Below, in pieces: positions 13,785 through 23,250 of a stretch of 64,000 nucleotides of DNA. The DNA is taken from positions 930,001 through 994,000 of the forward strand of contig NC_017243.1 of the NCBI RefSeq assembly GCF_000223215.1, given 5' to 3'. The translations under genes and the position numbers were made by a program. The notes beneath the pieces were generated by a model. That model ran no database searches. It was not told where the DNA came from and saw nothing but the letters and a program-made list of their open reading frames with translations. Numbering within the stretch: position 1 is the first letter of the stretch; each line of letters begins with the position of its first letter. This DNA comes from Brachyspira intermedia PWS/A. Lineage in GTDB: Bacteria; Spirochaetota; Brachyspiria; Brachyspirales; Brachyspiraceae.

Positions 13785-14122
13785 AAACAAATATACTTTG
13801 TCAAAAATAAATTTATATTTTTGTTTTGATATTTGGGGCTTTGCTGCGAAGCACACATACATGCCACACACCACTTCTTTTGCGACCGAAGAAAGTTCCT
13901 GTGGTATTGCCGCAGGGGCGAAAGGCTACATTTTGACTTAAATTTGGTAATTTATTTTACAGGTAAAACTATTTTAGTATTAATTTTATACTTGCACTTT
14001 CGCCTGCCAAAGGCACGCTTCGCGAGGCGTACTTCGTATGGTTCTTGGCGAAGCCCGCCTGTGGCGTGCGGCGGGAAAAAGAACAACAAAAAATTGACGA
14101 GCTTAAAAATTTTCAGTATATA
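13785..14122 (+). repeat. dispersed mosaic repeat, copy 2 (diverged)
   Basis: Starts with ATATACCTAAACAAATATAC and TTTGTCAAAAAT, related to the left part of copies 1 and 3. It carries GC-rich palindromic modules (CGAAGCACAC, GGCACGCTTCGCGAGGCGTA, GCGAAGCCCGCCTGTGGCG). It ends in the shared promoter-like end TTGACG-17 bp-TATATA (14094-14122). This end points at mnmA, whose start is 90 bp downstream. It fills the 435-bp gap after the Bat operon. Confidence 0.65.
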
Positions 14123-17160: not shown

Positions 17161-18174
17161 ATGGATATAGAAAATATGATTAGTATAATAATACCTGTTT
17201 ATAACGTTTCAAAATATTTAAGAGCTTGTTTAGATAGTGTAATTAATCAGACATATAAAGATTTAGAAATAATATGTATTAATGACGGATCTACTGATGA
17301 TTCTCTTGATATATTGAGAGAGTATGCAAATAAAGATAATAGAATAGTTATAATAGATAAAAAAAATGCTGGAGTATCTGCGGCAAGAAATGATGGAATA
17401 GATAAAGCTAAAGGTGAATATTTATTTTGTATTGATAGTGATGATTATATAGATAATAATTTTATTGAAGTTTTTTATAATAATGCTAAAAAAAATAATA
17501 GCGATTTAGTGGTATTAAGCAGTTTTTGGAAGTTAGATAAAAGAGTAAATAAAGATTATCATTCAGCACTTCCAACTTGTTCAATGTTTATCAAAAACTC
17601 TATATTGGATAATTATAAATATTTGAGATATCCTTTGAATGTTCAGCCTGGAGAAGACGGTATATTTTCGCATGAACTTTTAATGTATACTAATAATGTT
17701 AGTTTTGAATACAGTGTAAATTATCATTATGTGAAAAGGCCTGGACAGGATTCGCAAAGAGCTGTTAAAGAACCTAAGATATTATTAGAAGCTATACCAA
17801 AATGGTTTGAGTTATTAGATGATTTTTATACTAAATATAATTTTTGGGATCGTAAGTCTTTATCATTTGCTAAATATATTGAAGGCGAGGCTTTTCTTGC
17901 ATTTAGAACAAAAAATTTTATTCCTGATGATGAGAGAAAAATTTTTGATATTATAAAAAATACTTTAAATAAAGTTTTAAAAAATATTGATAAAGAAGAT
18001 TATAATAAATATTTTTCTAAAGAGTTTATTATTTTTATAGAGTCTAATACAATAAAAGAGTATTATAGTAAAATAAAATACAAATATAATTATATAAGAT
18101 TTACACTATTCGGAAAAGATGTATCTATACGGTATAGAGAAAACAGATACAAATATTATAAAAATGATAAATAA
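17161..18174 (+). CDS. family 2 glycosyltransferase (GT-A fold)
   Basis: A 337-residue enzyme that transfers a sugar from a nucleotide donor. The GT2 signature is complete at the N-terminus: ISIIIPVYNVSKYLRACLDSV, CINDGSTDDS, KNAGVSAARNDGI, and the DxD metal motif in FCIDSDDYID. The C-terminal half is less conserved and contains WFELLDDFY and a basic end. The ATG at 17161 lies within about 10 nt of a TATAAT box and has no ribosome site. The ATG at 17176 (MISIIIPVYN) fits the family start and follows GGAT by about 10 nt, so it may be the true start. Acceptor unknown; lipooligosaccharide or surface glycan is plausible. Confidence 0.85.
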   Translation: MDIENMISIIIPVYNVSKYLRACLDSVINQTYKDLEIICINDGSTDDSLDILREYANKDNRIVIIDKKNAGVSAARNDGIDKAKGEYLFCIDSDDYIDNNFIEVFYNNAKKNNSDLVVLSSFWKLDKRVNKDYHSALPTCSMFIKNSILDNYKYLRYPLNVQPGEDGIFSHELLMYTNNVSFEYSVNYHYVKRPGQDSQRAVKEPKILLEAIPKWFELLDDFYTKYNFWDRKSLSFAKYIEGEAFLAFRTKNFIPDDERKIFDIIKNTLNKVLKNIDKEDYNKYFSKEFIIFIESNTIKEYYSKIKYKYNYIRFTLFGKDVSIRYRENRYKYYKNDK

Positions 18175-18197: not shown

Positions 18198-18638
18198 TTT
18201 CTTTAACGCACGGTAATAAAAACTTCAATTTTTATTGTTATTATAATTAATATAAACTTATATTTTAATTTCGCTATGCGTGCGGTATTTAGATTTTAAA
18301 TTTAAAAATCACTTGGGTGGGTGCTATAAGTTCTAATTTAGTAATAAGGAAGTGAAAAATAAAAAATTAAAATTAAGTAAAAAAATATAAAGGGTGGGAA
18401 TGAAAATAAGTTTTAAAACTTTATTTACATTCCCCGCCCTATAGGCTTTTTATTATTTTTTGTCATTTTTATTTTATTTTTCTTTAAAAAATTTTTACTG
18501 TTATTTTTGCTGCCCACCCAAGTTTAAATAAGTATTATGGTATTTATTACCGCACGTTGAATAAATTTAATATGTGAATTAAGTAATAATTTCAATTTTA
18601 ATCATGAATATAACTTTACTTACCGTGCGTTAAAGAAA
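18198..18638. mobile_element. 441-bp long-hairpin element with 19-bp terminal inverted repeats (MITE-like)
   Basis: The ends TTTCTTTAACGCACGGTAA (18198-18216) and its exact complement (18620-18638) enclose nested inverted repeats. These are CGTGCGGTA (18279-18287) with TACCGCACG (18548-18556); ACTTGGGTGGG (18311-18321) with CCCACCCAAGT (18513-18523); and AGGGTGGGAATG (18390-18401) with CATTCCCCGCCCT (18428-18440). The whole unit can fold back on itself. AATTAAA flanks both sides close to the ends, a possible target duplication in AT-rich DNA. No gene lies inside. It fills most of the 638-bp gap. Confidence 0.7.
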
Positions 18639-18812: not shown

Positions 18813-19943
18813 ATGAGTAAAGTTGCTGTAATAAAATGTGAAAATTATGATTTAGAAGAAGTTAAATCTGCTATTGAAAAAGCTATAGATTTGATTGGCG
18901 GAATAGATTTATTTGTTAAAGAAAATGATAAGGTATTGCTTAAGCCTAATTTTCTAGCTGCTGAAACTGCTGAAAGATCTGTAACAACTCATCCAGTAGT
19001 ATTTGAGGCTGTTGTATCTATACTTCAGGAAAAAACTGAAAATATTTCTTATGGAGATTCTCCGGGAATAGGTAAGGGTAGCAGTGTAGCATTGAAGTCC
19101 GGTATAGATGAAATAGCTAATAAATTGAATGTCAAATACGCTGATTTTGAAGAGCCTGTAGGTGTTACTTATGAGGACGGAGTACAGGAGAAAAGTTTTA
19201 CTATAGCAAAGCCTATACAGGAAGCTGATGTAATAATAAGTTTACCGAAATTAAAATCACATGCCCTTACAACTATGACAGGAGCAGTAAAAAATCAATT
19301 CGGATGCATACCCGGTTTTAGAAAAGCTGAATATCACTTGAAGCTTCCAGATTTTGAAGATTTTTCTACTATGCTTCTTGATTTGAATAAACTAGTTAGT
19401 CCAAAACTTTATATAATGGACGGAATTCTAGCTATGGAAGGAAACGGACCTAGAAACGGAAACCCTAGAAAAGTTAATGCTTTAATAGTTTCTAATGATG
19501 CTGTAGCTTTGGATTATGTTGCTTCCAAAATAATATCATTCGATTATAATAGTATACCAACTTTGAAAATGGGATTTAAACATGGATTTTCAAATAAAGA
19601 GGAAATAGAAGTTGTTGGCGATGGTATAGAAAGTGTAAAAGTAACAGATTTTAAAAAACCGCATAAAGGAATAGGTATAGGAAGAAGTTTAATGAAGTTA
19701 AGCAAATTCCCTCTAATCAAAAGACTTTTTGCAACTATAATACCTAAACCTGTAATAGAAAAAAATAAATGTGTAAAATGCGGTGTTTGCGTAAAGGTTT
19801 GCCCTGTAACACCATTAGCACTTAATTTTGATAAAAAAGGTAAAGATTATCCGCCTGAATATTATTATAAAAATTGTATATCTTGTTATTGCTGTCAGGA
19901 ATTATGCCCTCATAAAGCTATAGTATTAAAAAGAAAATTTTAA
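18813..19943 (+). CDS. DUF362 protein with C-terminal 2[4Fe-4S] ferredoxin domain
   Basis: A 376-residue protein. The DUF362 domain covers about 1-300: VLLKPNFLAAETAERSVTTHP, YGDSPG, ISLPKLKSHALTTMTGAVKN, and IMDGILAMEGNGPRNG. The last 60 residues hold two cluster motifs: CVKCGVCVKVCPVTP and CISCYCCQELCP. An in-frame ATG at 18762 exists, but AGGAG sits 4 nt before the ATG at 18813, so this start is chosen. DUF362-ferredoxin proteins are common in anaerobes and are presumed redox proteins; the reaction is unknown. Confidence 0.85.
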   Translation: MSKVAVIKCENYDLEEVKSAIEKAIDLIGGIDLFVKENDKVLLKPNFLAAETAERSVTTHPVVFEAVVSILQEKTENISYGDSPGIGKGSSVALKSGIDEIANKLNVKYADFEEPVGVTYEDGVQEKSFTIAKPIQEADVIISLPKLKSHALTTMTGAVKNQFGCIPGFRKAEYHLKLPDFEDFSTMLLDLNKLVSPKLYIMDGILAMEGNGPRNGNPRKVNALIVSNDAVALDYVASKIISFDYNSIPTLKMGFKHGFSNKEEIEVVGDGIESVKVTDFKKPHKGIGIGRSLMKLSKFPLIKRLFATIIPKPVIEKNKCVKCGVCVKVCPVTPLALNFDKKGKDYPPEYYYKNCISCYCCQELCPHKAIVLKRKF

Positions 19944-21714: not shown

Positions 21715-23085
21715 TTATTTAACTTTACTTAGATATTTATTTTCTGTGTCATCTGCAAGCTTATATATTTTTTCTTCGTCTATAGTGATAATTTTTCCTT
21801 TTTCCACAACAACTTTTCCATTAACAACAGTATAATCAACGGTATTCTTCCAGCCTATAGTGCCGAATAAAGATTTAGGATCGAAATTAGCACCTACCAT
21901 TTCTAATTTTCTCATATCTATCATGAATAAGTCTCCTGCTTTTCCTATTTCTAAACTTCCTATATCATCTCTGCCTAAAACTTTTGCACCTCCATTTGTT
22001 GCAATTTTTAATATATTATATGCACTAGGAGCTTTATCGCTTGAATTGAGTCTATGAAGCAAATAGCATACTCTCATTTCTTCAAGTAAACTAGAACCAT
22101 CATTGCTTGCACTTCCATCAACTGCCAAACCTACAGGCACTCCTAATTCAAGCATTTCAGGTATTCTGCAAACTCCGGAACTTAATTTCATGTTTGATAT
22201 TGGACAATGAGCTACACCTGTTTTTGTATCAGCCAAATATTTTAACTCTTTTTCATTAAAATGAATTCCATGAGCATACCATACATCTTCACCAACCCAG
22301 CCAAGAGATTCCATATATTCCAAAGGACGCATATTGAATTTTTCTCTTACAAAAACTTCTTCATCTTTAGTTTCGCATAAATGAGTGTGAAGCCTTACTT
22401 TCAAATCTCTAGCCAAAACAGCAGACTGCTTTAATAATTCACCAGTAACATTGAAAGGGGCACAAGGAGCTAATGCCACCATGTTCATAGAATATTTTGA
22501 GCTGTCATGATATTTTTCAACTACTCTCTGACAGTCTTTTAGAATATCATCTATTGACTGAACCACAGAATCAGGAGGAAGTCCTCCGTCTTTTTTACTT
22601 AAATCCATACTTCCTCTTGAAGCATACATTCTTATTCCCAAATCTTTAGCAGCAGCAAATTGAGAATCCAATATTCCTTCTGCATTGTTATTAGGAAATA
22701 AATAATGATGATCAAAACATGTTGTGCAGCCTGTTTTTAGTAATTCGCCCATTGCTGTCATAGAACTATAATACACAACATCATTATTAAGATTTTTCCA
22801 TATTTCGTATAGATTAGTAAGCCATTCGAATAATTCCATATTCTGAACCTGCGGAAGATTTCTAGTGAATATTTGAAATAAATGATGATGAGTATTTATA
22901 AGTCCCGGATATACAAAACAGCCTTCAGCGTCAATTACTTTATCTGCATTTTTTTCTTCTTTTGTTTCTTTACCGATATAAGTTATAACTCCATTTTCTA
23001 TAAATAAATTACTGGAGCTATGAACCGTATCATTATTATCGCATGTAACTATAGAAGAAGCATTTTTGATAAATATACTAGACAT
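21715..23085 (-). CDS. 8-oxoguanine deaminase-like amidohydrolase
   Basis: A 456-residue metal-dependent deaminase of the TrzN/AtzB-like amidohydrolase group. Features seen are the metal site NTHHHLFQ at about 65-72, the text LPQVQNMELFEWLTNLY, the CTTCFDHHYLFPNN segment, ASRGSMDLS, and GGLPPDSVVQ. There follow the metal His in RLHTHLCET, HGIHF, GVAHCPISNMKLSSG and the catalytic Asp in AVDGSASND. This closely resembles the 8-oxoguanine deaminase described from Pseudomonas (PA0142 type), which makes urate from 8-oxoguanine; isoguanine or other purine bases are alternatives. GGAGG lies 10 nt before the ATG. A purine riboswitch occupies the leader, in line with a purine substrate. Confidence 0.85.
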   Translation of the reverse strand: MSSIFIKNASSIVTCDNNDTVHSSSNLFIENGVITYIGKETKEEKNADKVIDAEGCFVYPGLINTHHHLFQIFTRNLPQVQNMELFEWLTNLYEIWKNLNNDVVYYSSMTAMGELLKTGCTTCFDHHYLFPNNNAEGILDSQFAAAKDLGIRMYASRGSMDLSKKDGGLPPDSVVQSIDDILKDCQRVVEKYHDSSKYSMNMVALAPCAPFNVTGELLKQSAVLARDLKVRLHTHLCETKDEEVFVREKFNMRPLEYMESLGWVGEDVWYAHGIHFNEKELKYLADTKTGVAHCPISNMKLSSGVCRIPEMLELGVPVGLAVDGSASNDGSSLLEEMRVCYLLHRLNSSDKAPSAYNILKIATNGGAKVLGRDDIGSLEIGKAGDLFMIDMRKLEMVGANFDPKSLFGTIGWKNTVDYTVVNGKVVVEKGKIITIDEEKIYKLADDTENKYLSKVK

Positions 23086-23119
23086 ATATTGATACCTCCG
23101 TTAATTAAAATAAGGCACA

Positions 23120-23190
23120 AAAACTTATAGTCAATTATTGAGGTAATTGGTAGAAACGTTCAGCCATATTATGAACTTATATAAGCTGTA
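23120..23190 (-). ncRNA. purine (guanine-class) riboswitch
   Basis: On the minus strand the leader reads CTTATA (P1), TAA, a P2 stem GTTCA/TGAAC with loop AATATGG, then GTTTCTACC (J2/3). A P3 stem AATTA/TAATT with loop CCTCAA follows, then GACTA and TATAAG closing P1. This is the purine aptamer in order with every conserved junction. The discriminating base is C in GACTA, as in guanine-class aptamers (U would mean adenine). It ends 35 nt before the start codon of the 8-oxoguanine-deaminase-like gene. No strong terminator follows, so control of translation is more likely. Confidence 0.88.
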
Positions 23191-23250
23191 TAGTTATTGC
23201 CTAATTGCATTATAAAATATTTTATTTTTATGTCAATTCATAATTCATTT

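Follow-up and report, generated by a model that had tools for sequence, protein, structure and literature searches.

The 441-bp element described here, from a 64,000-bp stretch of the chromosome of Brachyspira intermedia PWS/A (the window; the genome is G000 below), belongs to a selected, modular and polar family of DNA repeats in Brachyspira. This non-coding family from a genus of animal-gut spirochaetes is large and apparently previously unreported; a search of the Brachyspira genome papers for repeat terms and additional literature searches gave no description of such a repeat. We lean towards reading it as a selected and modular array of paired DNA sites, specific to Brachyspira, which resembles the BIME arrays of enterobacteria and whose motifs are putative DNA-protein sites, and such a protein-site array would have a chromosomal role.

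The initial annotation of the element as a gene-free fold-back structure with 19-bp perfect terminal repeats and four nested sets of inverted repeats is borne out. The two ends (TTTCTTTAACGCACGGTAA and TTACCGTGCGTTAAAGAAA) are perfect inverted repeats over 19 bp, and inside them the blocks a and A', B and b, and C and c (Table 1) are nested in turn from the ends to the centre. The interior contains no ORF of at least 60 aa and a single ORF of at least 30 aa, itself 30 aa long. One strand can indeed fold, with a predicted energy of −121.3 kcal/mol compared with a shuffle mean of −74.0 kcal/mol (z = −8.7, none of 100 shuffles as low), and the best-aligned arm pair at the element ends covers 55 nt with 71% complementarity. 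The part of the 19-bp ends found family-wide is limited to about 14 bp (TTAACGCACGGTAA). On the outer side of the A motif, the ends of the same copy are no more complementary than ends taken from different copies, and thus the 19-bp length is partly luck in the window copy.

Table 1. Sites and modules of the element, in window coordinates.
Feature	Position	Strand	Description
Whole element	18198-18638	+	H1-H2-H1, 1.25 periods of the 344-bp array; GGGTGGG side left (polarity +)
Left 19-bp end	18198-18216	+	family core TTAACGCACGGTAA = site A, 18203-18216
Inner site a (CGTGCGGTA)	18279-18287	-	closes left module H1 together with A
Site B CTTGGGTGGG	18312-18321	+	module H2 begins
Site C AAGGGTGGG	18390-18398	+	left of H2 dyad axis (axis near 18415)
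Site c CCCGCCCT	18433-18440	-	right of H2 axis
Site b CCCACCCAAG	18513-18522	-	module H2 ends
Inner site A' (CCGCACG)	18550-18556	+	right module H1; about 344 bp from left A
Right 19-bp end	18620-18638	-	core TTACCGTGCGTTAA = site a', 18620-18633

Upstream of the element a glycosyltransferase-like gene ends at 18174, and the gene starting downstream near 18813 is read, from the sequence, as encoding a putative DUF362/ferredoxin-type protein. At locus L098, upstream of the DUF362-like gene, the genome G022 has an extra palindromic repeat (GCGAGCCGAAGCCCTTAAC...AAGCCTTTAGGCGTAGGCGAGC) adjoining the element. Elsewhere in the window, a G+C-rich intergenic stretch at 13833-14090 (TCTTGGCGAAGCCCGCCTGTGGCGTGCGGCGGG and surroundings) is a member of a second dispersed repeat, the core pattern of which has 14 evenly spread matches in the genome. 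In addition, a purine riboswitch (Rfam RF00167) lies at 23108-23204 on the minus strand, upstream of the minus-strand ORF 21715-23085, the product of which looks like an amidohydrolase.

The array is built of two palindromic modules, H1 (CGCACGG/CCGTGCG) and H2 (GGGTGGG, GGGTGGG / CCCGCCC, CCCRCCC). Motif scans and a half-unit profile gave the site order A a B C c b A a. The distances between the sites are constant; in the copies of G000 and of a second species (G004) they are A-74-a-35.5-B-78-C-45-c-78-b-35.5-A bp, with a period of about 344 bp. The intervals fall within 2 bp of the median in 96–98% of cases in five classes and in 87% for C-c (n = 50–90 each), and the site spacing is locked in this way despite the divergence of the half-units to about 60% identity. 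In some loci the units follow one another head to tail (cbAaBC, AaBCcbAaBC), repeating about every 344 bp; others contain a half that stops close to the H2 centre, or a solo H1 module. The 441-bp element is therefore H1-H2-H1, or 1.25 array periods.

The array is polar. The two arms at the H2 centre differ, one having GGGTGGG and the other, on its own G-rich strand, GGGCGGG. This difference, T on the left (C) and C on the right (c) in most copies, marks the polarity. The left/right centre bases are T/G or C/A in 50 of 62 cases, T/A in 3 and C/G in none, and the same bias is present genus-wide among the matches listed; the centre-base count on loci L184-L263 is not evidence, since these loci were picked by that same pattern. 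When copies are oriented by C, the left B has T as its centre base in 28 of 32 and the right b has G (top strand) in 20 of 32, so the polarity spans the H2 module. At the window locus, six genomes share the polarity once the strand of the locus is allowed for. A polarity flip between the window copy and its G022 orthologue was considered and rejected, as the G022 locus lies on the other strand.

BLAST revealed about 40 element loci in B. intermedia PWS/A, among the best 40 of 477 candidates, and the end motif with at most two mismatches has 140 matches, compared with 6 for a reversed control. Both the end motif and the core motif are present in 23 of the 26 Brachyspira genomes; neither was found in the Brachyspira genomes G001, G003 and G019 or in two sister genera. 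The search for further copies suggested at the outset was thus successful, and because of these loci and genomes the element is not single-copy, whereas a single copy had been named as what would speak against a MITE or RNA. In a pattern scan over 84,980 species genomes, the matches listed were all from Brachyspira, apart from one unrelated sequence in a Chromatiaceae MAG, rejected as a different sequence on a contig of 52% GC. Plasmid and phage collections and viral contigs contained zero matches to the element. As far as searched, the family is restricted to Brachyspira. The closest paralogues of the window copy show 74–76% identity, and none of them is both close and full-length.

All elements examined are intergenic; the gaps are convergent in 16 cases, divergent in 12 and tandem in 18, and the elements often begin just a few bases away from a stop codon. 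In the tandem gaps the polarity agrees with the gene strand about half the time, i.e. there is no relation between them. This bears on the suggestion that the element is a structured non-coding RNA, or acts at the RNA level as a terminator or 3'-end stabiliser folding into hairpins. The very stable predicted fold, the frequent position next to gene 3' ends and the centre mismatch, which would be a G.U pair on one strand only, are in favour of such an RNA, but there is no orientation preference with respect to genes, and the module number varies, with half, solo and multi-unit forms. Pairing itself was compared within and between copies. Arm identity is 0.573 within copies versus 0.590 between copies, and predicted duplex energies are weaker within copies for the B-C arms, C-c, B-b and the linkers on both strands; the H1 arms do not differ. 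Since the arms are less complementary within than between copies, pairing is not what is kept. RNAalifold recovered stems for A-a, B-b and C-c. When standard pairs were counted in an alignment oriented by polarity, with orthologues among its members, they were slightly commoner within copies than between them; however, this excess is small and the shared ancestry of orthologues can inflate it, whereas in the alignment-free tests on paralogues alone the arms pair worse within copies. Compensatory changes (covarying base pairs) in the arms were not found in the within- versus between-copy tests, and in an Rfam scan every family stayed far below its gathering score for the element. On the sum of the pairing tests we read the pairing as not maintained, and perhaps there is selection against long perfect palindromes. 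An RNA-level element is thus quite improbable in our view.

What is maintained is the set of motifs. Eight copies common to G000 and G004, identified through matching flanks, were compared as orthologues: G/C positions in the motifs are identical in 269 of 285 cases (94.4%) and G/C positions outside them in 225 of 373 (60.3%; p = 3e-26), while A/T positions are kept at about 83–85% inside and outside the motifs alike. The motifs were defined in G000, which biases their conservation somewhat upward, and their G/C retention is still above a stricter neutral expectation of 0.78 (p = 8e-15). Motif G/C is kept while other G/C decays in the same orthologues, and thus selection acts in place, although ectopic gene conversion between some copies could add to the apparent conservation.

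The number of units changes at fixed loci. L148 has three units in G004, two of them 97.7% identical, and one in G000, and the L140 and L142 arrays are likewise longer in G004. At the window locus, the array in G021 is differently phased (cbAaBC), and it is absent from G014, G017, G001 and G003. The comparison with the empty site that was proposed initially therefore has material to work on, as empty orthologous sites exist, but no precise insertion was seen: the G025 site has the appearance of a deletion at a TAAA microhomology, and divergence at the other empty sites is too great for the element ends to be placed. Individual arrays are dispensable, as the empty orthologous sites in G025, G014 and G017 show. 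Inside elements, abrupt changes from near-identical to strongly diverged blocks, like those of gene conversion, were observed in L142 (1300-1850 and 4850-5400) and between L127 (1120-1790) and L157 (1250-1935).

These data bear directly on the mobility of the element, which had been proposed to be a MITE. As a selfish, non-autonomous element it would be mobilised in trans, and the motifs would be transposase-recognition sites. Part of this proposal holds, since the copies are numerous, dispersed, intergenic and gene-free with inverted ends (the 14-bp family core), occur in tandem and solo forms, include a dispersed array pair (L127 and L157) about 86% identical over the whole length, and have been lost and gained between species. 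The marks of transposition did not follow. A target-site duplication was sought in 52 full copies and no offset or length stands out, and a Y1 transposase/RAYT (PF01797) was found in 0 of 29 genomes, while five control genomes were positive. No inverted, well-matching end pairs 0.6–3.5 kb apart were seen among the end-motif matches listed (read by eye), i.e. no transposase-sized version among the best-matching ends. Furthermore, the window copy is without a close full-length paralogue, half elements break near the H2 centre and not solely at the ends, and the motifs are protected in place in old orthologous copies and are not decaying. We therefore consider a MITE unlikely, though less so than an RNA.

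Another explanation is a family of recombination sites, in which paired sites would serve a recombinase or homologous recombination that rearranges the chromosome around the origin. The mosaic blocks and unit shifts between copies, the array length changes at fixed loci, the flanks of several elements that match separate G004 places on their two sides, and the reported X-shaped rearrangements (PMC3163572) fit it, but the microhomology deletion at the empty site is ordinary, and we regard this explanation as very improbable. The split flank matches in G004, found for L030, L019 and L036 against L127, L128, L138 and L152, hint that some elements sit at synteny breakpoints.

B. intermedia PWS/A has a 3,304,788-bp chromosome and a 3,260-bp second contig, and its sequence starts at a GC-skew origin which is not linked to dnaA (PMC3163572). 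In this genome dnaA lies at 1.33 Mb, with the skew origin 1.3 Mb away, and most of the GC-skew samples are above zero over the first half of the sequence and below zero over the second. The loci cluster around the skew origin: 32 of 46 end-motif loci are within 0.4 Mb of position 1, a region covering 24% of the chromosome (p = 1e-10), and the median distance from the skew origin is 287 kb versus 826 kb expected. A control dispersed repeat, evenly spread, has 3 of 14 copies in the same region (Fisher p = 0.002 against the array loci), the control being one repeat with 14 copies only. The sign change of the skew in G004 lies near 1.9 Mb, no further than a quarter genome from 39 of the 41 array loci. 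A distribution centred on dnaA was rejected by the locus positions; a polarity following the replication strand was likewise rejected, with a weak bias in G000 and none evident among the G004 matches listed. The clustering could instead reflect a tolerant or recombining region.

Considering this evidence together, we assume that an array of protein sites works as follows. The motifs would be bound as double-stranded DNA by one or two putative sequence-specific proteins, and the fixed spacing would set the bound complexes in a defined geometry. BIME-2 arrays of enterobacteria bind gyrase. In a parallel role, with other sequences and no RAYT, the Brachyspira array might organise the chromosome, handle supercoils or form a boundary between transcription units in the half of the chromosome nearest the origin. 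Slow ectopic copying, together with gene conversion and local tandem duplication, is the probable source of new copies. A more far-reaching and rather doubtful possibility is that the polar 344-bp site array is an origin-domain organising system of spirochaetes read by a putative DNA-binding protein. It would tentatively be a previously undescribed system parallel in function to matS, parS and BIME-2 and unrelated to them in sequence, and, at a similarly low likelihood, it may mark the half of the chromosome around the GC-skew origin where the origin is displaced from dnaA. The exact motifs and spacing can be used to fish for a candidate binder. Moreover, the origin bias, if causal, would give a handle on where replication starts in Brachyspira, because the published skew and dnaA positions disagree (PMC3163572).

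Among known repeat systems, bacterial MITEs (PMC10969869) are likewise short, AT-rich and gene-free with inverted ends, whereas the Brachyspira array has no target duplication, a partner transposase was not found in the Y1 search or among the best-matching ends, and its motifs are under selection in place. BOX elements of Streptococcus (PMC3049150) are also modular intergenic repeats in which the number of inner modules varies and which are over-represented between convergent genes; however, they are proposed to act as a transcribed structure and their module plan differs, while the Brachyspira array has locked spacing and dyad sites uncoupled from pairing. REPINs (PMC3116915) resemble H1, as both are short inverted motif pairs scattered in intergenic DNA, with an AT-rich spacer that has a fixed length, but REPINs have common compensatory changes and a cognate RAYT, neither of which was found here. 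The result for the Y1 transposase leads us to reject a RAYT/REPIN link. Compared with BIME-1 and BIME-2 of the enterobacterial REP palindromes (PMC2817692), the Brachyspira array has other motifs and a 344-bp unit, is polar and origin-biased, and goes without RAYT/Y1 transposase and compensatory pairing. Because this defining transposase and this pairing were tested and not found, the array is not a member of the REP/RAYT family. Outside that family it appears to work like the BIME arrays, with which it shares the intergenic position, tens to hundreds of copies, a variable number of tandem units, and palindromic units in alternating orientation at regular spacing, the last of these tested and observed in the Brachyspira array.
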